NCBI RefSeq assembly: GCF_001720485.1
Contig: NZ_CP017114.1
Span: forward strand, 868,001 to 932,000
Length of the DNA: 64,000 nt
Source of the DNA: Cobetia marina
GTDB lineage: Bacteria; Pseudomonadota; Gammaproteobacteria; Pseudomonadales; Halomonadaceae
Direction: 5' to 3'
How positions within the stretch are numbered: the first letter of the stretch is position 1; each line of letters opens with the position of its first letter. The notes beneath the pieces were generated by a model that was given only the letters and a program-made list of their open reading frames with translations, searched no databases and was not told the origin of the DNA. The translations under genes were made by a program, and so were the position numbers. Below, piece after piece: positions 11,597 to 44,084 of the stretch.

Positions 11597-11819
11597 GCGT
11601 CTTGAGATGTCGTTTCGTCTTCCAGGAGACGACATTCCGGCGCGCTTTGCGCCCGCTCGCGAGCACACTTGAGCGCAGGGCGCTTGCATCATGCGCGACA
11701 TGCCCTCATCTTTTCCTTATCCCATCAACGTCAATGCCCGGCGATGGAAGTGGCCTTCCGTCGTGGCGCGTTGAGGCAATCAGCTTCGCCACTGCTTGTG
11801 TTCACCGGATCAGCCCCTT

Positions 11820-12221
11820 ATGTTCAAGACAGACACATCGTGCAGCAGCTTCTCTTTCTCGCAGCTGTTGCGGATCAGGAATCAGGCTCCCTCGGCACAG
11901 GAGCCGTCGCACCAGGAGGATCAGGATGGCGATCTGGCGTTCGCTACCGCTGAGCCCGAACTGGCGCCACCGCCCATGTACAAGGTCGTTCTGCACAATG
12001 ATGACTTCACGCCGATGGATTTCGTCGTGGAGGTGCTGACCACCTTCTTCAACAAGGATCAGGAGCAGGCAGTACAGATCATGCTCGCTGTCCATCATCA
12101 GGGAAAAGGAACCTGTGGCATCTTCAGCCGCGACATCGCGGAAACGAAATGCCACCAAGTGAATCAATATGCTCGAGAGTGCCAGCATCCGCTGCTGTGC
12201 GACATCGACCGGGCGGAGTGA
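11820..12221 (+). CDS. clpS: ClpS, N-recognin adaptor of ClpAP
   Basis: 133 residues, with a non-conserved N-terminal arm of about 50 residues followed by the ClpS core. The core begins [20 protein letters not shown], which holds the N-degron pocket residues (NDD and TPM), and ends HPLLCDIDR. ClpS hands proteins with N-terminal Leu, Phe, Trp or Tyr to ClpAP. The start is uncertain: 11820 gives MFKTDTS, an in-frame ATG at 11796 is possible, and neither has a strong ribosome site. It lies 33 bases upstream of clpA and is probably co-transcribed. Confidence 0.93.
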
Positions 12222-12254
12222 TCCGTCCAAGACGCGGCCTAGAGGGGACTTGCC

Positions 12255-14519
12255 ATGTTGAGCAAAGAACTTGAACTGACCCTGAACACGGCCTTCACCG
12301 TGGCACGTTCCAAGCGCCACGAATTCATGACCGTGGAACACCTCCTGCTGGCACTGCTCGACAATGCCTCCGCTTCGGACGTCTTGCGCGCCTGTGGCGC
12401 CAATCTGGACAAGTTGCGAGTCGACCTTCAGGACTTCATCAACTCCACCACCCCGCTGATCCCGGAAGAGCAGGAAGACCGCGAGACGCAGCCGACGCTG
12501 GGCTTCCAGCGCGTGCTTCAGCGTGCTGTCTTCCATGTCCAATCCTCCGGCAAGAGTGAAGTGACCGGCGCCAACGTGCTGGTGGCCATCTTCTCCGAGC
12601 AGGAAAGCCAGGCGGTCTACTTCCTCAAGCAGCAGAATGTCGCGCGGGTCGATGCGGTCAACTACATCGCCCACGGCATTTCCAAGGTGGCGGGTCACAC
12701 CCAGGCGCCTCAGGCGTCGGTCGAGAGCGAGGAAGGCGAGGAGAGCAGCGGCGAGAGCGGCAACAGCCCGCTGACCAACTACGCCACCAACCTCAACGAC
12801 CAGGCACGTCTGGGCAAGATCGATCCGCTGATCGGCCGTGATGAAGAACTCGAGCGCGTGGTGCAGATTCTGGTGCGCCGTCGCAAGAACAACCCGCTGC
12901 TGGTCGGCGAGGCCGGTGTCGGCAAGACCGCCATCGCGGAAGGTCTCGCCAAGCGAATCGTCGAGGAAGACGTCCCGGAAGTCATCAAGGAAGCCGTCGT
13001 CTACTCGCTGGATCTCGGCGCGCTGCTGGCGGGTACCAAGTACCGCGGTGATTTCGAGAAGCGCCTCAAGGCTCTGCTGGCGGAGCTGCGCAAGGAACCG
13101 AACTCGATCCTGTTCATCGACGAGATCCACACCGTCATCGGGGCGGGGGCGGCGTCCGGTGGCGTGATGGATGCCTCCAATCTGCTCAAGCCACTGCTGT
13201 CTTCCGGTGAGCTGCGCTGTATCGGTTCCACCACCTTCCAGGAATTCCGCGGCATCTTCGAGAAGGACCGTGCGCTGGCACGTCGCTTCCAGAAGGTCGA
13301 TGTCATGGAGCCGTCGGTGGACGACACCATTCGCATCCTCAAGGGGCTGCGAGGTCGCTTCGAGGAACACCATGCCCTCAAGTACACCGATGCGGCGCTC
13401 GAGACGGCGGTGCGACTGGCGGATCGCTACATCAACGATCGTCAGCTGCCCGACAAGGCCATCGATGTGATCGATGAAGCCGGTGCTCACCAGCGTCTGC
13501 TGCCCGAGAGCATCCGTGTCGATACCATCGATACCGAGCAGGTCGAGGCGATCGTGGCGTCCATCGCCCGCATTCCGCCGAAGACGGTCTCCAGCTCCGA
13601 CAAGAAGCTGCTGTCCAATCTCGAGCGTGATCTCAAGATGCTGGTGTTCGGTCAGGACGATGCCATCACCGGCCTTTCGGCAGCCATCAAGCTGTCGCGT
13701 GCCGGACTCAAGGCGCCGGACAAGCCGGTGGGCAGCTTCTTGTTCGCTGGGCCGACAGGTGTCGGCAAGACCGAGGTCGCGCGTCAGCTGGCAGCGTTGA
13801 TGGGGATCGAGCTGGTGCGCTTCGACATGTCCGAGTACATGGAGCGTCACACTGTCTCGCGCCTGATCGGGGCACCGCCGGGCTATGTCGGTTATGACCA
13901 GGGCGGGCTTCTGACCGAAGCCATCACCAAGCAGCCGCATTGTGTGCTGTTGCTGGATGAGATCGAGAAGGCACACCCGGAAGTCTTCAACCTGCTGCTG
14001 CAGGTGATGGACCACGGCCGCCTGACCGACAACAACGGTCGCGAAGCGGACTTCCGCAACGTCATCCTGGTGATGACCTCCAATGCAGGGGCCGAGCAGG
14101 TGGCGCGTCGCTCCATCGGCTTCAAGCATCAGGATCACTCCACCGATGCGATGGAAGTCATTCGCAAGACCTTCTCGCCGGAATTCCGCAACCGTCTGGA
14201 TGGCATCATCCAGTTCGGCGCGCTGGATCTCGCCGTGGTGCGCAATGTGGTCGACAAGTTCCTGGTCGAACTGCAGGCACAGCTTGACGAGAAACGCGTG
14301 CAGCTGGACGTGGCGGATGAAGCGCGAGACCTGCTGGCGACTCTGGGCTATGACCCGGCGATGGGGGCTCGTCCGATGGCGCGCGTCATTCAGGAGAAGC
14401 TCAAGAAGCCGTTGGCCGAGATGATCCTGTTCGGTGATCTGTCGGAGTCCGGTGGTATCGTGCATGTCACGGTCGATAACGGCGAACTGCACCTGGAGAC
14501 CGAGGCTGAAATGGCCTGA
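12255..14519 (+). CDS. clpA: ClpA, ATPase subunit of the ClpAP protease
   Basis: 754 residues, the usual ClpA length. Repeated Clp N-domain in the first 150 residues, then AAA+ module 1 with Walker A GEAGVGKT near residue 218 and Walker [17 protein letters not shown]+ module 2 has Walker A GPTGVGKT near residue 499 and Walker [14 protein letters not shown]. The ClpP-docking loop appears as RSIGFKHQD near residue 619. ClpA unfolds substrates, including those delivered by ClpS, into ClpP. A ribosome site GAGGGG precedes the ATG. Confidence 0.97.
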
Positions 14520-35659: not shown

Positions 35660-36019
35660 ATGAGCGATATCCAACGTCACGATACCAAGGCACGCATGAG
35701 CCGCGCCGTCATCCACAACAACACCATCTACCTGTGTGGTCAGGTCGCCGGGCCGGAACAACGCTTCAGTGATATCACGGACCAGGCCAACAGCATGCTC
35801 GCGCGTGTCGATGCGCTGCTGGAAGAAGTCGGCACCGACCGCGAGCATCTGCTCTCCGCCACCGTCTATCTCAAGACAATGGACGACTTCAAGACCTTCA
35901 ACGACATCTGGGACGCCTGGGTACCGGAAGGTCACGCCCCCGCCCGTGCCTGCGTCCAAGCCGCCATGGCCAGCCCGGAACTGCTGTGTGAAATTACCGT
36001 GGTCGCCGCCGTTAAATAA
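35660..36019 (+). CDS. RidA/YjgF/YER057c family enamine-imine deaminase
   Basis: 119 residues, single RidA domain. The conserved substrate arginine is in [17 protein letters not shown] and the C-terminal Glu in [11 protein letters not shown]. RidA proteins hydrolyse reactive enamines/imines generated by PLP enzymes such as threonine dehydratase; the subgroup cannot be fixed by eye. Start at 35660 follows AAGGA. Its stop codon coincides with the left edge of the AT-rich island, with the gene apparently intact. Confidence 0.9.
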
Positions 36020-36038
36020 CACGCAGTATGGTTTTTCT

Positions 36039-36073
36039 AACCCTGTTAGAGTTTTCTCTGGCAGGGTTTTTTT
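36039..36073 (+). terminator. Terminator after the RidA gene
   Basis: AACCCTG (36039-36045) pairs with CAGGGTT (36062-36068), followed by a T run to 36073. It protects the islet gene from read-through of the upstream genes. It may be part of the islet. Confidence 0.7.
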
Positions 36074-36099
36074 ATGTTTATTATTGTTGTAATTATGCT
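36071..36099 (+). promoter_or_regulatory. Weak candidate promoter of the DUF6119 gene
   Basis: TTTATG at 36071-36076 and TATGCT at 36094-36099 with a 17-base spacer would give a short leader before the start at 36120. Match to consensus is modest, but AT richness makes promoters of this kind likely. Confidence 0.25.
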
Positions 36100-36119
36100 T
36101 TTTAATTAAAGGTGTGATT

Positions 36120-37757
36120 ATGGCGGGTTTGGAAGTTTATTTATCGCTTAACTCTTTGTTAGTAAAGCCAGAATATGCACAAAGAGATTTGAGTAGTTTG
36201 CTAAAACCTGGCTCTATGTTTAATGAGTATGATTTAAGTGAGGAGCATGAACTTGATGCCGAAGGAAAGCTATTTGTTAAAACACCTGTTGCTAATGAGC
36301 CAAAATGGCGGAGTTTTGCTGAAAGTGTAGTTGGTGAGGAACTAACAGGGTTACAAAATATTTCTAACTCTGCCGTATTGCTAATTAAATCTAACGGCAA
36401 GGTTGTAGCATTTACGTTTGGCTACGGACGTTTTTTGTTAGACTTAACATGCTTTGTTCCCGACTTTGGAATAAAAACAGCTTTGAATACGTTAGATCAT
36501 AGTAGTCTCCGTAGCGTAGATGTTTTGACTTTAGATGATCAAGCAGTCCAGAAAAAATCACAATCTTCAAAAGAAGCTGGCGTTGATATATTTGGTATTG
36601 ATGTATCTAGAGATATATTGAGAGCTGTTACAGGTTCCGCTAAAGATGGAGTCGAGCTAAATAGAATTACTGGCGGTGATGCTATCTACTCGTTTAGCTT
36701 ATCTATTAGTGTATCTGAGCTTCCTAGTTTAATAGATACTCTTTACGGCTACTATAACAATGAATCGTATAAAAACGAATTTTCATGGGTTGATAATATT
36801 AGAAGAGTAAAAAATGATGGAGAAATATCTAGTTTAAATGAAAGCATGTTGGATAACGTAAAACTAAAAAATTCTGTGATAAAAATCACTATGCCAGAGA
36901 TTATCAACTGGGATCTAGTGCATGGGTTTAGCTATACGCGTGCTAAAACTCAAGTCAATCCAACAATCGAGACGGAAGATTATTTCGATACTATAAATGC
37001 TACGAGTATAACGATTGAGTCTATAAAAAGCGATAAGCTGTTCGTCTTTTATTTAGATGGTAGTGTTAAAGAGTATTCTATATACAAGTGCTTATATTAT
37101 GAGTTTGTGAGTGGTGATAAAACTTATGTGATGTTTTCTGGTGTATGGTATGAAATAAACAATAAGTTCATCTTGGACATAGATGCTAATTTATCTAGGA
37201 TACCAATATCTAGCCTATCTTTTCCAGATGTACATGTTTGGACCGATAGAATTAACGAAAAAGATATACTTAAAATTGAATCAGAGGGGCATTATAACTC
37301 TAGAGTGTCGACAGGCAGTAATTTTTACTTGTTAGATAAAAACCTAGTTAAAACAAGTAAATCTACCAGTAGTATAGAGCTTTGTGATTTAATGACAATT
37401 GACAGAAAGTTCGTGCATGTTAAACACCGTAAAGGAGGATCTTCTGGCTTGAGTCATTTATTTGCACAAGGTTATGTATCCGCTGAGCTGACTTTGAGTG
37501 ATCGAGATTTTCGAAAAGAAGCTAGGAAAAAACTTAAGCCGATAAGTAGTTCGCTTAGAGATACCATCCCAATTGATGGTTATAAAAGTAGTGGTGTCGA
37601 AATTGTGTTTTTGGTTTTAGGTGAAGATTCGGCAAGTTTAATTTCTAATTTACCTTTGTTTAGTAAGGTTAATCTAAGTAAAGTATATGACAATTTGATA
37701 CATCGAGGATTTGACGTAAGCGTGGCTGGTGCAGCTAAATTAGATATAAGTCAGTGA
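36120..37757 (+). CDS. TIGR04141 family sporadically distributed protein (DUF6119), putative defence gene
   Basis: 545 residues, no signal peptide or membrane segment. Family hallmarks seen by eye: KWRSFAESVVG near residue 62; AVLLIKSNGKVVAFTFGYGR near 86; FGIDVSRDILRAVTG near 158; and HVKHRKGGSSGLSHLFAQGY near 433. The C-terminus (EIVFLVLGEDSASLISNLPLF) fits the same family. Its biochemical activity is unknown to me; members are patchily distributed, often in accessory regions, which suggests phage defence or element maintenance (inference). AAAGG precedes the ATG by seven bases; an in-frame GTG lies at 36114. Codon use is AT-rich and unlike the neighbours, indicating horizontal transfer. 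It is convergent with the gene at 37771, with only 13 bases between. Confidence 0.85.
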   Translation: MAGLEVYLSLNSLLVKPEYAQRDLSSLLKPGSMFNEYDLSEEHELDAEGKLFVKTPVANEPKWRSFAESVVGEELTGLQNISNSAVLLIKSNGKVVAFTFGYGRFLLDLTCFVPDFGIKTALNTLDHSSLRSVDVLTLDDQAVQKKSQSSKEAGVDIFGIDVSRDILRAVTGSAKDGVELNRITGGDAIYSFSLSISVSELPSLIDTLYGYYNNESYKNEFSWVDNIRRVKNDGEISSLNESMLDNVKLKNSVIKITMPEIINWDLVHGFSYTRAKTQVNPTIETEDYFDTINATSITIESIKSDKLFVFYLDGSVKEYSIYKCLYYEFVSGDKTYVMFSGVWYEINNKFILDIDANLSRIPISSLSFPDVHVWTDRINEKDILKIESEGHYNSRVSTGSNFYLLDKNLVKTSKSTSSIELCDLMTIDRKFVHVKHRKGGSSGLSHLFAQGYVSAELTLSDRDFRKEARKKLKPISSSLRDTIPIDGYKSSGVEIVFLVLGEDSASLISNLPLFSKVNLSKVYDNLIHRGFDVSVAGAAKLDISQ

Positions 37758-37770
37758 TCGAGTAGCAGGT

Positions 37771-38655
37771 TTATATGATGCTTTGTCGTTTTGTTTTTGC
37801 CTCATACCTCACCCATTCCCGATAAAACCCGTCCAGTCGTTCTGTCTCGTTGAGGTGTGATGCCTCGGCGAGGCGTTTGCGTGCGTCTGTAGGCAGCATG
37901 GCGATGCGGGCGTCGAGGTCGTGGGCGTGGCGGGGGTTGTGGTATTCGAGGTCCAGCCCGAGCGGGAGGGTGGCGAGGCCGACGAGGACATGCCCGTGAC
38001 GGTGGGCGATGGAGACGTAGAAGCCTGCCGGTAGCGCAGGGTGATGGGGTGCCTGGCCACGCGGTGACCAGTCGGCCAGTGGCAGCGCAATGCCTTGGGC
38101 CGCGGCGAGTTCGCCGAGCAGAAGGCGGGCGAGGTGGGATTCGGCTTCACATTGCTGGCGACGGCGGGCCTTGGCAGATGACACGGGAGTGTCCGCGTTA
38201 TCCACATCCGTCTGGCGAGGGCGCATCAAGTTACCGCTGGAAGCCTCACCCGAGGAGTTGATAGAGGGAGCAGCCGAATCAGCACAGGATGCTGGCAGCA
38301 CACACGCTTCGGCCAGCCACAGGCGGGCTGGCCGAGGGGAAGATTCAGAGCAGGTATTTGGCAAGGCGCAGGCTGCCGCAAATCCCAAGGAAGCGGCGAG
38401 AGCATGGGGATCATGCGAGATCAGCGGCTCGCCGTTGGACAAGTCGGCGCTCGGCGAACCAGTGCTCGGCGAACCAGTGCTCAGTGAACCAGTGCTTAGT
38501 GAAGCGGAGCCATGCGATACCGCATGCCCCAGCACCACGCAGCGGTAGGCGGGGTGATCGGTCGGGCGCGCCGCAGGAGTATCCGCCGCGCGCGCCGAGC
38601 TGCCCTCGACCGGCTCGCCTGTCTCACTCACATCCTTGCCTTCCCTGGCCGTCAT
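37771..38655 (-). CDS. 4'-phosphopantetheinyl transferase, C-terminus probably replaced by islet sequence
   Basis: 294 residues. The Sfp-type core is in the second half: PAGFYVSIAHRHGHVLVGLA, GLDLEYHNPRH (Mg-binding Asp/Glu) and FYREWVRYEAKTK (equivalent of the WxxKEA motif, with YEA). It would activate the two ACPs of the aryl polyene cluster. The protein stops eight residues after EA, and those codons (KTKRQSII) are AT-rich like the islet, so the native C-terminus seems lost. An unusual low-complexity region of roughly 90 residues (LSTGSLSTGSPSTGSPS and flanks) separates the N-terminus from the core and includes a 15-bp repeat. Activity is uncertain. Confidence 0.75.
   Translation of the reverse strand: MTAREGKDVSETGEPVEGSSARAADTPAARPTDHPAYRCVVLGHAVSHGSASLSTGSLSTGSPSTGSPSADLSNGEPLISHDPHALAASLGFAAACALPNTCSESSPRPARLWLAEACVLPASCADSAAPSINSSGEASSGNLMRPRQTDVDNADTPVSSAKARRRQQCEAESHLARLLLGELAAAQGIALPLADWSPRGQAPHHPALPAGFYVSIAHRHGHVLVGLATLPLGLDLEYHNPRHAHDLDARIAMLPTDARKRLAEASHLNETERLDGFYREWVRYEAKTKRQSII
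38446..38505 (-). repeat. 15-bp tandem repeat inside the phosphopantetheinyl transferase gene
   Basis: Unit AGTGCTCGGCGAACC recurs four times (38446, 38461, 38476, 38491) with a few changes, encoding the five-residue repeat GSLST/GSPST. Confidence 0.9.
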
Positions 38656-38664
38656 GATGGCGAA

Positions 38665-39204
38665 TCAGTTCTTCGGATGCAGGATCACCAGATCCCCGCG
38701 CAACGCGACGCCCGCGACGACATTGCCCGCGTGGCACTCGTACTTCTCGCTGCTGGAGTAGGGCACGTTGTCATAGTCGCTGCGAATGTTGATGACGGCA
38801 TTGGCCCCGTATTCCCGCGCCTTCTCCTGCAGCTCGCGCAGCGCCGACAGGAACACCCAGCGGCAGGCCGCGGCATCGCTCTTGTTGGTCGCGTTGGTCT
38901 TCGGGTTCACCCGTGCCCAGCCACGCTTCTCGATGCGCTCGTAGGGCTGCTTGTCACCGAAGAAGAAGGCCACATCCTTGCCCAGTCGCTGACTGGCCGC
39001 AGTGCTGGCCATCACCGGCATGATGGGCAGGAAGTGCTGCGTATCCCGCGCCTGTGCCGGCGCGGAGGCCAGCAGCCCGGCCGCGCCGAGCACCAGGGCG
39101 GACACCAGCACGCGTCCCCGCGACAGGCGGCCGGCCGGCGCCGTGCTGGCGTGGGCCATGGGGTGTGACGAGGAAACGAACGACTGAGCAACGGATGACG
39201 CCAT
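38665..39204 (-). CDS. Small secreted protein of aryl polyene clusters (often labelled excinuclease ATPase subunit)
   Basis: 179 residues. A hydrophobic segment (VLVSALVLGAAGLLASAPAQA) ending before RDTQHF is a signal peptide. The mature part, with LREYGANAVINIRSDYDN-like sequence and KYECHAGNVVAGVALRGDLV, matches the YbjQ-like proteins commonly found at the end of aryl polyene clusters and misannotated as excinuclease subunits. Its role in the pathway is unknown. The start at 39204 follows AGGAG; 190 bases separate it from the ketosynthase gene upstream. Confidence 0.7.
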   Translation of the reverse strand: MASSVAQSFVSSSHPMAHASTAPAGRLSRGRVLVSALVLGAAGLLASAPAQARDTQHFLPIMPVMASTAASQRLGKDVAFFFGDKQPYERIEKRGWARVNPKTNATNKSDAAACRWVFLSALRELQEKAREYGANAVINIRSDYDNVPYSSSEKYECHAGNVVAGVALRGDLVILHPKN

Positions 39205-39396
39205 CTGACACCTCTCCTGACAGGGTTTGACTGGCTCGACGCCAGGGAATATCGCCTTCATCCAGCCAACGGCGTGAGCCAATCACACCATAGACCATGC
39301 AGCGGGCGCGTATCTTGCGCCAGTTGTGACCCGCTGCAAAGTCGTCTGGTGGCGACAGTCACGCGCCCGATGACCCCGAGGGCCGTGCGGGCGTCG

Positions 39397-40653
39397 TCAG
39401 CCCTGCCAGCGCCGCAGGATCAGCGAGGTATTGATGCCGCCGAAGGCGAAGTTGTTGCTCATCACCGTATCCGTCTCGATCTCGCGGCCGCCGTCACGCA
39501 GGTAGTCCAACGTCGCGCAGCGCGGGTCGATGTCCTTGAGGTTGGCGGTGCCGTGGAACCAGCCTTCGCTCATCATCTCGATGGCGATCCAGGCTTCCAG
39601 CGCGCCGCAGGCCCCCAGGGTATGGCCGGTGTAGCTCTTGAAGGCACTGATGGGCGTGCGTTCCCCGAACACGGCATGAGTGGCGTGACTCTCGGCGATG
39701 TCGCCGCGCTCGGTGGCGGTGCCATGCGCGCTGACATAGCCGATCTCGCTGGCCGAGAGGCCGGCATCGTCAAGGGCCATGCGCATCGCGGCCTCCATCA
39801 TGTCGGCGTCCGGCTGGGTGACGTGGCGGCCATCGGAGTTGGTGCCGAAGCCGAGAATCTCGGCGTGGATGGTCGCGCCACGCGCCAGGGCGTGGTCCAG
39901 CTCCTCGAGGATCAGCGTGCCGGCACCTTCGCCGATCACCAGCCCGTCACGCTCGGCATCGAAGGGCCGCGGCGAGCGGTCCGGGCGGTCATTGCAGGTG
40001 CTGGTGGCGAACAGGGTGTCGAACACCGCGGCATCGGCGGCGGACAGCTCCTCGCAGCCCCCGGCGACCATCGCTATCTGGCGGCCGAAGCGAATCGCCT
40101 CATAGGCATAGCCGATGCCCTGGCTGCCGGAGGTGCAGGCGCTGGAGGTGGTATGAATCCGCCCCTTGATGCCGAGAAAGACCCCGATGTTCACCGGGGC
40201 GGTATGCGCCATCATGCGGATGTAGGAGTTGGCGTTGAGGCCATCGGTGGAGTGGTTGATCAGCATGTTGCCGAAGTCCGCCACCGCGTCCGGCTCACCG
40301 GCGGACGCGCCGTAGGCGATGCCCATCTGGCCGCTCTCCTTGAGCGGGCTGTCACTCAGTCCTGCGGCTTCCAGCGCCAGCTCGCTGGAGCGGGTCGCCA
40401 GCTGGGCCACGCGCCCCATGCTGCGCAGCGCCCGGCGGTTGTAGTGCTTGGGCAGTTCGAAATCGCTGACCGGCGCGCCGAGACGCGTGTTGAGACCCTC
40501 GTACTTGTCCCAATCCTCGATATAGCGGATGCCGGTGCGGCCCGCGGCCAGATTGGCGCGCAGGGTCGGCCAGTCATTGCCGATGGGCGAGAAGCCATGC
40601 ATGCCGGTGACGACGACGCGATGGCCGCGCAGCGGGGAAGAGGGAGCTGTCAT
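39397..40653 (-). CDS. apeR: Beta-ketoacyl-ACP synthase (ApeR-like)
   Basis: 418 residues, full-length FabF-type ketosynthase. Catalytic triad: Cys173 in TTSSACTSGSQG, His in VSAHGTATERGD and His in KSYTGHTLGACG. Condenses the growing chain with malonyl-ACP in type II aryl polyene synthesis. The start shares one base with the apeQ stop (TGATG). In the reference cluster order O-P-Q-R this is the R position. It is the last of the overlapping core genes. Confidence 0.88.
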   Translation of the reverse strand: MTAPSSPLRGHRVVVTGMHGFSPIGNDWPTLRANLAAGRTGIRYIEDWDKYEGLNTRLGAPVSDFELPKHYNRRALRSMGRVAQLATRSSELALEAAGLSDSPLKESGQMGIAYGASAGEPDAVADFGNMLINHSTDGLNANSYIRMMAHTAPVNIGVFLGIKGRIHTTSSACTSGSQGIGYAYEAIRFGRQIAMVAGGCEELSAADAAVFDTLFATSTCNDRPDRSPRPFDAERDGLVIGEGAGTLILEELDHALARGATIHAEILGFGTNSDGRHVTQPDADMMEAAMRMALDDAGLSASEIGYVSAHGTATERGDIAESHATHAVFGERTPISAFKSYTGHTLGACGALEAWIAIEMMSEGWFHGTANLKDIDPRCATLDYLRDGGREIETDTVMSNNFAFGGINTSLILRRWQG

Positions 40654-41447
40654 CAGAACATCCCTCCGTTCACCGCGATGGTCTGGCGGGTGATGTAGCC
40701 GGCATCCTTCGAGCACAGGAAGGCCACGGTGGCGGCGACTTCCTCGGCCTCGCCCGCGCGGCGCATGGGAATCATCTTCAGCGCCTCGTCCATCTCGACC
40801 CCTTCGGTCATCTCGGTGGCGATGACCCCCGGCGCGACGGCATTCACGGTGATGCGGCGCTTGGCCAGTTCCACCGCCAGCGCCTTGACCGCGCCGATCA
40901 GCCCCGCCTTGGCGGCGGAATAGTTGACCTGACCGCGATTGCCCATCATGCCGGACACCGAGGACATCACGATGATGCGCCCCGGCTTGCGGCGACGCAC
41001 CATCGGCATCGCCAGCGGCTTGACCACGTTGTAGAAGCCATCGAGGTTGGTGCGGATCACGCTGTCCCAGTCCTCATCGGTGAGCGCCGGGAAGGCGTTG
41101 TCGGCGTGGATGCCGGCATTGCAGATGACGCCGTAGTAGCAGCCGTGGGCCTCGACATCGGCCTCCAGCGCGCTGCGTGCGGCCTCGCGGTCGGCGACAT
41201 CGAAGTTCAGGATGCGCGATTCACCGCCCAGGGCGCTGATCTCACGCGCGACCTCCTCGGCGGCATCACGGCGCGAGCGGCAATGCAGCACCAGATTGTA
41301 GCCTTCGCGGGCCAGACGCAGCGCGATGGCGCGGCCGATGCCACGGCTGGAGCCGGTGACCAGAATCCACTCGCGCGTCTCATTGGCAGCGGCGGCCCCC
41401 TGGTTGTCAGCAGGGGTAGTTCGAGTAGCGGGAGGTGTGACAGACAT
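40653..41447 (-). CDS. apeQ: 3-ketoacyl-ACP reductase (ApeQ-like)
   Basis: 264 residues, classical short-chain dehydrogenase/FabG. Cofactor motif TGSSRGIGRAIA, NAGI segment (VICNAGIHADNAF), catalytic SSVSGMMGNRGQVNYSAAK with Ser, Tyr and Lys. Reduces the beta-keto group after each extension. A disordered Thr/Ala-rich N-terminal arm of about 27 residues precedes the Rossmann fold. Overlaps neighbours by one base on both sides. Confidence 0.9.
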   Translation of the reverse strand: MSVTPPATRTTPADNQGAAAANETREWILVTGSSRGIGRAIALRLAREGYNLVLHCRSRRDAAEEVAREISALGGESRILNFDVADREAARSALEADVEAHGCYYGVICNAGIHADNAFPALTDEDWDSVIRTNLDGFYNVVKPLAMPMVRRRKPGRIIVMSSVSGMMGNRGQVNYSAAKAGLIGAVKALAVELAKRRITVNAVAPGVIATEMTEGVEMDEALKMIPMRRAGEAEEVAATVAFLCSKDAGYITRQTIAVNGGMF

Positions 41448-42091
41448 CAGACATTACCTTGCGGTGCGGCACCGGCAGCATCCTGCTGACCGGGTGAGTG
41501 TTCTTGTGAGTGTTCTGGTGAGCGCCCCTGTGGGCCTGCTTCAGAGCTTCCTTCCTCCGACACGGCAGACGCCACGGCCTGGGCGGGCGGCTCGAAGACA
41601 TTCACGCCGGCACGGGCGACCTGCGTGCCGTGCTCGTCGCTGAGGGTGGCCTTGAAGGCGCCCAGGCCGTTGTCGGCGCGATAGTCGAGCTGCACGTCTA
41701 TCTGCCAGCGTTGCCCGCAGGCGAAGGCGTGCAGTTCACTCTCATAGCGGCGGCTGCCGAGCAGAAACCCGACGCGGGGTGACTGGCCTGCGCGCGCGGC
41801 CTGCAGGCCCGACCAGGCGGCGATGGCCTGGGCCATCCACTCGAGCCCGACCCAGGCGGGAATCACGGCCTGGCCAGCGCCGTCCAGCTCCGCGAACAGA
41901 TCCTCGGGCGAGGGGCGCACGCTCGCGCTCAGCGAGTGCTCGTCACAGGCCAGCACCTCATCCAGCAGGCACATGCCCGCCTCGTGTGGCACATAGGGGC
42001 CGATGGCGCAGGGCATGACGGGATAGCCCTCGTCATGAAAAGACGTGCCGTCGGGTAGCGGCGTGGCGGGGGTAGCGGTCGGGGTCAGCAT
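41447..42091 (-). CDS. apeP: Hotdog-fold 3-hydroxyacyl-ACP dehydratase (ApeP-like)
   Basis: 214 residues. The segment YVPHEAGMCLLDEVLACDEH followed by WVGLEWMAQAIAAWSGLQA is the ApeP-type hotdog dehydratase pattern. It removes water to form the conjugated double bonds. The last 40 residues are a Ser/Gln/Glu-rich tail encoded partly by a 12-bp repeat (EHSQEHS). Overlaps the ketosynthase by seven bases and apeQ by one. Confidence 0.85.
   Translation of the reverse strand: MLTPTATPATPLPDGTSFHDEGYPVMPCAIGPYVPHEAGMCLLDEVLACDEHSLSASVRPSPEDLFAELDGAGQAVIPAWVGLEWMAQAIAAWSGLQAARAGQSPRVGFLLGSRRYESELHAFACGQRWQIDVQLDYRADNGLGAFKATLSDEHGTQVARAGVNVFEPPAQAVASAVSEEGSSEAGPQGRSPEHSQEHSPGQQDAAGAAPQGNV
41494..41522 (-). 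repeat. 12-bp tandem repeat at the apeP 3' end
   Basis: GTGAGTGTTCTT and GTGAGTGTTCTG followed by a partial GTGAG, about 50 bases before the apeP stop codon. In frame, it encodes EHSQEHS. Confidence 0.8.
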
Positions 42092-43386
42092 GCAGAGGAC
42101 TCCGGGTCGGTGGCGTGACGCTCCAGTATCAGCGAGATGTTGTTGCCGCCGAAGGCGAAGGCATTGCTCATCACTCTGAGCGGCGGGGTCTCGGGGCGGT
42201 CACGATAGACGATGTTGAGCGCGGGCAGTGTCGGGTCCAGTGCTTCACGCGGGGTGGCGTGCGGCGGCAGGCGACCATGTTCCAGCGTCAGCCAGCAGAA
42301 GGCGGCTTCCAGCGCCCCGCAGGCCCCCAGCGTATGGCCGGTGAGGGCCTTGGTGGAACTGACGGCGGGCGGACGGCTTGCGGCCTCGTCGCCATCGGGA
42401 CCGAACAGGCGGCTGATGGCGAGGCTTTCCATGGCGTCATTGAGCGGCGTGGCCGTGCCGTGCAGGTTGATGTAGTCGATCTCGCCGGGGGCGCGGCCGG
42501 CGCTGGCGAGCGCGCCACGCATCGCGGCCTCGGCACCGCTGCCATCCGGGCAGGGCGCGGAGATGTGATGGGCATCGCTGGATTCGCCGACGCCGGTCAG
42601 CTGCACGCCACCGTGCTCCGGCGTGACCACGAACAGCACCGCGGCCTCGCCCAGATTGATGCCGTCGCGCGCGGCGCCCAGGGGCTGGCTTTGCTGGCGG
42701 CTGACGGCCTCCAGACTCATGAAGCCCTTCACCGTCATGTGGCACAGGCTGTCGGCCCCACCGGCGATCACCGCATCACACTGCCCGGAGGCCAGCAGAC
42801 GCCGTGCGCTGGCCAGGGCCTTGGCGCTGGAGGTGCAGGCGGTGGAGAGGGTGTAGACCGGCCCGCGCGCGCCGCTCAACCAGGCCACGCACTCGGCGGG
42901 CGCGCCCAGTTCCTGACGGCGGTATTCAAAGCTCTCCGGCCAGCTGTCGGCGCTCGGCGTGCCCTGGGCAACGGCGGCGCGCTGGGCGTCCATCGCAGCT
43001 TCCGTCTCACCGATACCGGAGGTACTGGTGCCCAGCACCACGCCGATGCGCTCCGGCGCGATGCCCTGGCGCTTGAGGGCCTCAAGCTCCGGTGTCAGCT
43101 GCTCAAGCGCGGTGGCCAGCAAGCGGTTGTTGCGTGAGCGCAGCGGGGCCGGCCAGTCGCTGTCATCCACCAGCCGCGCGGTGACACGGCCCAGTGACAG
43201 CGGCGTGCCGGGACTGAAGTCATCACTGACGCGCAGGCCGCGACTGGCGCTGAACAGCGCACTGCTGATCAGCCCGTGGTCGGCGCCCAGCGGACAGACG
43301 ATACCGGGCCGAGACAGACGGCATGGGCTGCGAGGGGTGAGGCCATGGCGGGTATCAGGTGCCTCGGGTGTGACGGGTTCAGTCAT
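42085..43386 (-). CDS. apeO: Beta-ketoacyl-ACP synthase (ApeO-like)
   Basis: 433 residues. Catalytic Cys184 in TLSTACTSSAKAL, His in NLHGTATPLNDAM, His in ALTGHTLGACGALE. This is the elongating ketosynthase that pairs with the chain-length factor ApeC in characterised systems. The start at 43386 is chosen because upstream residues in the frame are Arg-rich and unlike any ketosynthase. It is 23 bases downstream of the lipoprotein gene. Confidence 0.88.
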   Translation of the reverse strand: MTEPVTPEAPDTRHGLTPRSPCRLSRPGIVCPLGADHGLISSALFSASRGLRVSDDFSPGTPLSLGRVTARLVDDSDWPAPLRSRNNRLLATALEQLTPELEALKRQGIAPERIGVVLGTSTSGIGETEAAMDAQRAAVAQGTPSADSWPESFEYRRQELGAPAECVAWLSGARGPVYTLSTACTSSAKALASARRLLASGQCDAVIAGGADSLCHMTVKGFMSLEAVSRQQSQPLGAARDGINLGEAAVLFVVTPEHGGVQLTGVGESSDAHHISAPCPDGSGAEAAMRGALASAGRAPGEIDYINLHGTATPLNDAMESLAISRLFGPDGDEAASRPPAVSSTKALTGHTLGACGALEAAFCWLTLEHGRLPPHATPREALDPTLPALNIVYRDRPETPPLRVMSNAFAFGGNNISLILERHATDPESSAC

Positions 43387-43409
43387 GCGGGGAAGCTTCC
43401 GGTGAGTCG

Positions 43410-44084
43410 TCAGGGGCTGGGGGAAGACAGGGGATCTAGCGTCATCTGCATCTCGGTGGCCGGGTCCCGCAGGATTACGCGGCCTTCGGCGTCGCGGGTC
43501 AGCTCGGCCATGCGCTCGCCATCGCGCAGGATGAGGCGCTGCGCGGTCTGGTGAGGCGTGTCCCACTCGCCGTGCTGCACCAGTTGCCAAACGCTGCCGG
43601 CAAAGGCGTCATCGATCGCGGCCTGTGGCCAGTGGACCCAGGCGATGCGACGGGCCAGCCAGTCGGCGGTGAAGGGCAGCTTCTCGAGCACCTCGGGGCG
43701 GGCCTTCTCGAAGCGGCTGCCATCGGCGTCATGCACCAGTGTCAGCAGTCGCTGGCCCTGCACGCTGAGCAGCACCAGCCGCATGGCCTCGGGCGATTGG
43801 CGCAGCACGCCGATGAGGGGCGGCAGGTCGCGAGCCTCGTCCTCAGCGGCGTCTGCTGCCGCGCGATTCTCGCTGGCCTCACTCTTGTTACGCTCAACGC
43901 GCAGAATCAGACGTTGGGTGCTGCTCTCCTGCAGGCTCGTCAGGGCCGGCATCGGGCTCTCGGCGCTGAGCGGACCGGGCACGAGCAGGCTGCAGCCGCT
44001 CAACAGCAGGCTGATCGCCAGCAGCAGTCCGACGGATCGCCGCCCGACTGAGACGGCATGAGGCGAGAGACGCATGGATATCAT
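43410..44084 (-). CDS. apeN: DUF3261 lipoprotein of the aryl polyene cluster (ApeN-like)
   Basis: 224 residues with a signal peptide ending in the lipobox LLLSGC (Cys about residue 31). The body (VLEKLPFTADWLARRIAWVH, then TQRLILRD) fits DUF3261 proteins of pigment clusters, probably LolB-like outer membrane acceptors. Its ATG overlaps the FAD enzyme stop by four bases, which decides the start. Confidence 0.8.
   Translation of the reverse strand: MISMRLSPHAVSVGRRSVGLLLAISLLLSGCSLLVPGPLSAESPMPALTSLQESSTQRLILRVERNKSEASENRAAADAAEDEARDLPPLIGVLRQSPEAMRLVLLSVQGQRLLTLVHDADGSRFEKARPEVLEKLPFTADWLARRIAWVHWPQAAIDDAFAGSVWQLVQHGEWDTPHQTAQRLILRDGERMAELTRDAEGRVILRDPATEMQMTLDPLSSPSP

Follow-up and report, generated by a model that had tools for sequence, protein, structure and literature searches.

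A stand-alone DUF6119 protein encoded between ridA and a PPTase-like gene of Cobetia marina is a candidate one-gene phage-defence effector

A single gene of the TIGR04141/DUF6119 family, to which the libraries used assign no function, lies in an AT-rich islet between a RidA-like gene and a phosphopantetheinyl transferase (PPTase)-like gene of Cobetia marina. The window analyzed here is a stretch of 64,000 nucleotides (positions 868,001 to 932,000 of contig NZ_CP017114.1), of which a preliminary description had been made from the letters alone. The features of the locus, in window coordinates, are as follows.

35660..36019, plus strand: RidA-like gene (ridA), conserved left flank; PF01042 match with E-value 3.1e-25; flank present in 6/6 genomes of the genus
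36039..36068, plus strand: terminator hairpin after ridA, 13 pairs and a T run
36073..37798, no strand: AT-rich cassette, the variable part of the slot; 1726 bp, 34.4% guanine plus cytosine (GC); edges placed by blastn against four sister genomes
36120..37757, plus strand: TIGR04141/DUF6119 gene, 545 amino acids (aa); from the list of open reading frames (ORFs), the DNA, PF19614 and TIGR04141
37771..38655, minus strand: PPTase-like gene, right flank; weak PF17837 match (E-value 0.018, 15.5 bits, below the cut-off of 27)

The abrupt drop in GC content that first drew attention to the islet is pronounced: 0.344 (36073-37798) against 65.2% in the remaining window, which corresponds to a z of about -11 relative to 1177 stretches of the same length from the window (mean 0.653, standard deviation 0.028, minimum 0.585). 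The GC3 of the gene itself is 0.27. The foreign origin of the islet that had been proposed is supported. The ORF list starts the gene at a GTG at 36114 (36114-37757, plus strand); the ATG at 36120, preceded by AAAGG, yields 545 aa, the length also found for the database copy P0001, in agreement with the earlier reading of one 545-residue gene with its own ribosome site. A terminator in front of the gene had been described as well, and the 13-pair hairpin is indeed there; it probably belongs to ridA, not to the islet, because four sister genomes carry a similar hairpin 3' of ridA. A promoter scan gave no site ahead of the DUF6119 gene (4 promoter-like sites in the scanned stretch, compared to 6.7 in shuffled sequences); the window has no tRNA, and between 35300 and 38700 no Rfam family reaches its gathering score. 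Besides the DUF6119 gene, the islet fully contains just one ORF of at least 80 aa, an antisense frame of 87 aa that begins with TTG. There is, then, no convincing antitoxin or partner gene, and the suggestion of an addiction module is not supported on this account. The genome (4.18 Mb, one contig) contains a single copy of the DUF6119 gene.

The family assignment made in the preliminary description was borne out by searches with both profile hidden Markov models, each of which covers nearly the whole protein (TIGR04141: E-value 3.1e-134, 448.3 bits, cut-off 35; PF19614: E-value 1.7e-131, 439.9 bits, cut-off 27). No domain besides DUF6119, and in particular no ATPase domain and no DUF4263, was detected in Pfam at E <= 0.001, and nothing in PADLOC matches the protein at E <= 1. 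Among 7994 scored candidates, 887 relatives passed the E-value; relatives of 544-547 aa that share 51-58% identity and invariant motifs are present in many bacteria. No papers on the TIGR04141/DUF6119 family were found in the library searched. The patchy distribution anticipated for the gene is apparent at every level: within the genus, only the own genome has it (1/6), and in three overlapping samples PF19614 was found in 8/151 genomes of the family Halomonadaceae and 4/369 of the class (the own genome and one fragment included in both counts), and in 11/398 of the phylum (own genome included). Two atypical cases were encountered, namely a divergent 840-aa family member that is greatly extended at its N terminus and shares the motif at the C terminus (L144 4318-6837) and a distant relative in a Pseudomonas phage record that adjoins a phage integrase gene (L042 8740-10449).

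Both flanks of the islet are conserved in 6/6 genomes of the genus, and the cargo between them is different in each of the six, five of which are other than the own genome. The flanks are 1574-2527 bp apart on one contig in 4/5 sister genomes, and the proteins encoded by the intervening DNA (35-42% GC) are unrelated from one genome to the next. In G002, the remaining genome, the flanks are split over two contigs, both of which include DNA that appears AT-rich by eye, and the cargo is incomplete. None of the 5 sister slots is empty, contrary to the empty sites that had been envisaged in relatives. According to blastn against four sister genomes, the left limit of homology is directly past the hairpin of ridA. 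The right limit is within the final codons of the PPTase-like gene, which fall inside the cassette, and the C-terminal tail of the PPTase-like protein therefore differs among all five species compared. In G005, a portion of the PPTase end appears AT-shifted by eye, as if acquired with the cassette. The cargoes of the sister slots are listed below.

G001, L030 2088-4211: transglycosylase-domain protein with membrane-like stretches and NYN-LOTUS protein (NYN 5.6e-36, with OST-HTH); no PADLOC match
G002, L033 4223-4849: NADAR protein (1.8e-27) at a contig end, encoded on the strand opposite to that of the remaining cargoes; scanned with Pfam only
G003: 582-aa AAA/OLD-TOPRIM protein (Old 9.2e-73); PADLOC-recognised
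G004, L029 2229-4117: PycTM (2.6e-26) and pieces of PycC (1.9e-24 and 8.8e-78); PADLOC-recognised
G005, L031 2124-3641: 239-aa protein without Pfam match, membrane-like in appearance, and Abi_C protein (1.7e-21) with a partial AbiJ match (1.7e-18); PADLOC-recognised

Thus, PADLOC matches were obtained for the cargo of three of the four sister genomes scanned (G003, G004 and G005). An insertion sequence that encodes an integrase-core transposase interrupts the Pycsar cyclase PycC of G004, and this defence allele looks broken; no mobility genes beyond this element were seen, either in the own islet or among the scanned cargo proteins. The transglycosylase/NYN-LOTUS pair of G001 is a candidate for a new two-gene defence system. 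Conserved flanks that enclose differing cargo, known defence systems included, are the hallmark of a defence hotspot, and the slot displays all of these features; accordingly, Cobetia probably has a small defence hotspot flanked by ridA and the PPTase-like gene, of which the islet would be one allele. The cassettes, about 1.6-2.5 kb long, would be swapped in this slot, most likely via homologous recombination in the conserved flanks and with no integrase involved; such replacement appears to be the simplest reading. One acquired gene without a mobility gene might also be a toxin or addiction gene on its own, or else a chance acquisition that is neutral to the host, a scenario that we consider improbable given that no convincing second ORF could serve as the antitoxin, that full-length relatives with invariant motifs have been retained in many bacteria, and that the slots of the sister species carry defence cargo.

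The predicted structure of the protein gives the second line of evidence, which bears on two features within the gene.

37188..37754, plus strand: C-terminal domain, codons 357-545; AlphaFold model compared with VIA-align, structural neighbours are nucleases
37278..37424, plus strand: codons of the candidate site, E387 (37278), D423 (37386), H433 (37416) and K435 (37422), invariant in 106/106 sequences (A2)

The top 7 rows for model 1 and the top 9 rows for model 2 in VIA-align are all nucleases, with weak structural scores. The sequence pattern of PD-(D/E)XK enzymes (D followed by (D/E)xK) is absent, as the position of the middle acid is taken by H433 in all 106 sequences, and because of this replacement the protein is not filed as a canonical PD-(D/E)XK member. 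The C-terminal domain (about residues 357-545) is predicted to be a PD-(D/E)XK-type nuclease with a variant site, E387-D423-H433xK435. A quite unlikely alternative is that the nuclease fold is dead and that the protein acts as a partner without catalytic activity, such as a DNA-binding or specificity factor in aid of other defence systems. The universal replacement of the catalytic acid by histidine, the low structural scores and the location of some family members beside hsdS and hsdR (see below) are compatible with such a role; however, E387, D423 and K435 are invariant as well, which a dead site need not retain, and the Cobetia copy is the sole gene of its cassette.

The genomic neighbourhoods of other copies were examined at 16 of 18 loci, with L144 and the fragment locus L145 omitted, the fragment L127 not extended and the own genome not used; the neighbours were 125 proteins with a length of 120 aa or more, encoded no further than about 5 kb away, with ORFs from a simple longest-frame caller. 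Type I restriction genes were identified at 6/16 genome loci (L131-L134, L136 and L143), of which L131-L133, homologous operons with the same layout, may represent one event; for these neighbours, 25 of 296 matching PADLOC families were listed. As a control, 13 of 16 random loci from the same genomes (117 proteins) showed no type I model among the 25 of 67 PADLOC families listed, a list led by broad helicase/ATPase models with at most 3 members per family. Of 27 matching plasmid records, 20 were listed, 15 opened and 13 found to be annotated. Type I restriction genes adjoin the DUF6119 gene at 6/13 of these annotated loci (L038, L039, L040, L044, L163 and L166), and four plasmids (L038, L040, L044 and L163) have the order hsdS-DUF6119-hsdR with overlapping ends. 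Shedu, TIR or NACHT genes are located within 10 kb on L035, L043 and L165, and no nameable defence genes are nearby on L041, L162, L164 and L167. We also checked for the three outcomes that the preliminary description itself had named as contrary to it (no family match, genus-wide presence, no association with accessory regions), and none of them occurred.

Several additional neighbours deserve mention. In two Halomonadaceae genomes, DUF6602 proteins immediately adjoin DUF6119 (L128, 8141-8911; L130, 8091-8879), a possible two-gene partnership. A GmrSD-type protein is encoded near the DUF6119 gene at L139, and all three type I operons with DUF6119 at L131-L133 include, at about 11800-12950, a gene for a protein of about 345 aa that probably belongs to the RhuM family.

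The restriction operons invite comparison with PrrC, an ABC-ATPase-like tRNA nuclease that is silenced by the linked type I enzyme and activated by a phage anti-restriction peptide (PMC2610378). By analogy, the DUF6119 family might guard restriction systems, being silenced by the type I complex and released upon a phage block, with the Cobetia copy watching another partner or having lost it. The hsdS-DUF6119-hsdR order on the four plasmids and the homologous operons at L131-L133 fit this scenario; given that the majority of the copies examined are outside such operons, that the Cobetia islet has no restriction gene and that Pfam did not find PrrC's ATPase domain, it appears unlikely. Similarly doubtful is a broader scheme under which the family consists of modular defence nucleases with an HxK site that act solo in hotspots and, between hsdS and hsdR, form a second line of defence triggered by the failure of type I restriction.

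The interpretation that we favour, as a whole reasonably probable, is that the islet is a hotspot cassette which carries a stand-alone, one-protein defence effector with an N-terminal sensor and a C-terminal nuclease. The N-terminal part (about residues 1-350) would sense infection or foreign DNA and hold the nuclease inactive; once triggered by infection, the nuclease would cut DNA, presumably by metal-dependent cleavage. The protein is a candidate one-gene phage defence because several of the genes that occupy the slot in sister species are known phage-defence genes and the predicted structure of the protein is reminiscent of a DNA-cutting enzyme; the sister cargo, together with the type I restriction neighbours elsewhere, points in the direction of the defence role already suggested in the preliminary description. 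That the Cobetia copy stands alone speaks for an ability to act alone. Beyond the slot (window 37771-43590), there are genes for beta-ketoacyl synthases, a reductase and an ApeP-like dehydratase, which we take to be probably an aryl-polyene type cluster.

What is new here is a concrete proposal on the function of an uncharacterised family, derived from the company in the slot, the company in operons and the predicted fold. A widespread family without a function thereby gains a testable role, with candidate catalytic residues and a defence context. Furthermore, the Cobetia slot amounts to a short natural catalogue of small cassettes, which makes candidates also of its uncharacterised occupants (the NYN-LOTUS/transglycosylase pair and the membrane-like protein next to Abi_C).

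With respect to known systems, the protein shows no difference from the TIGR04141/PF19614 family, with a full-length match, the same motifs and the same sporadic distribution. Shedu has a one-protein design in which a sensor part holds the nuclease until infection. The Cobetia effector would resemble Shedu in this design and, as far as the effector is concerned, HamA of Hachiman. It differs from the Shedu protein SduA (DUF4263) in the lack of a DUF4263 match, in HxK in place of the acid, and in the N-terminal part. HamA (DUF1837), in which changes at E138 and K140 are reported to abolish defence (PMC12278908), has the motif D-E(X)K as opposed to D-HxK, and requires the helicase HamB, whereas the islet, a single gene between RidA-like and PPTase-like flanks, has no HamB. 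The likeness to PrrC, which consists in the linkage of an additional gene to type I restriction genes, extends to part of the DUF6119 family only; the Cobetia protein lacks the ABC ATPase domain and its gene is alone, the restriction link being confined to other genomes. Core genomic flanks with changing defence cargo are described for the core defence hotspots cDHS1 and cDHS2 of Pseudomonas aeruginosa, with RidA among the markers used for cDHS2 (PMC10250203), and for hotspots of Escherichia coli (PMC10121019). The Cobetia slot shares with these hotspots the conserved flanks, the changing low-GC defence cargo and the absence of a single mobile element, and differs in taking cassettes of about 1.6-2.5 kb with no adjoining tRNA or tmRNA; it is a small example of this known type of hotspot in another genus.
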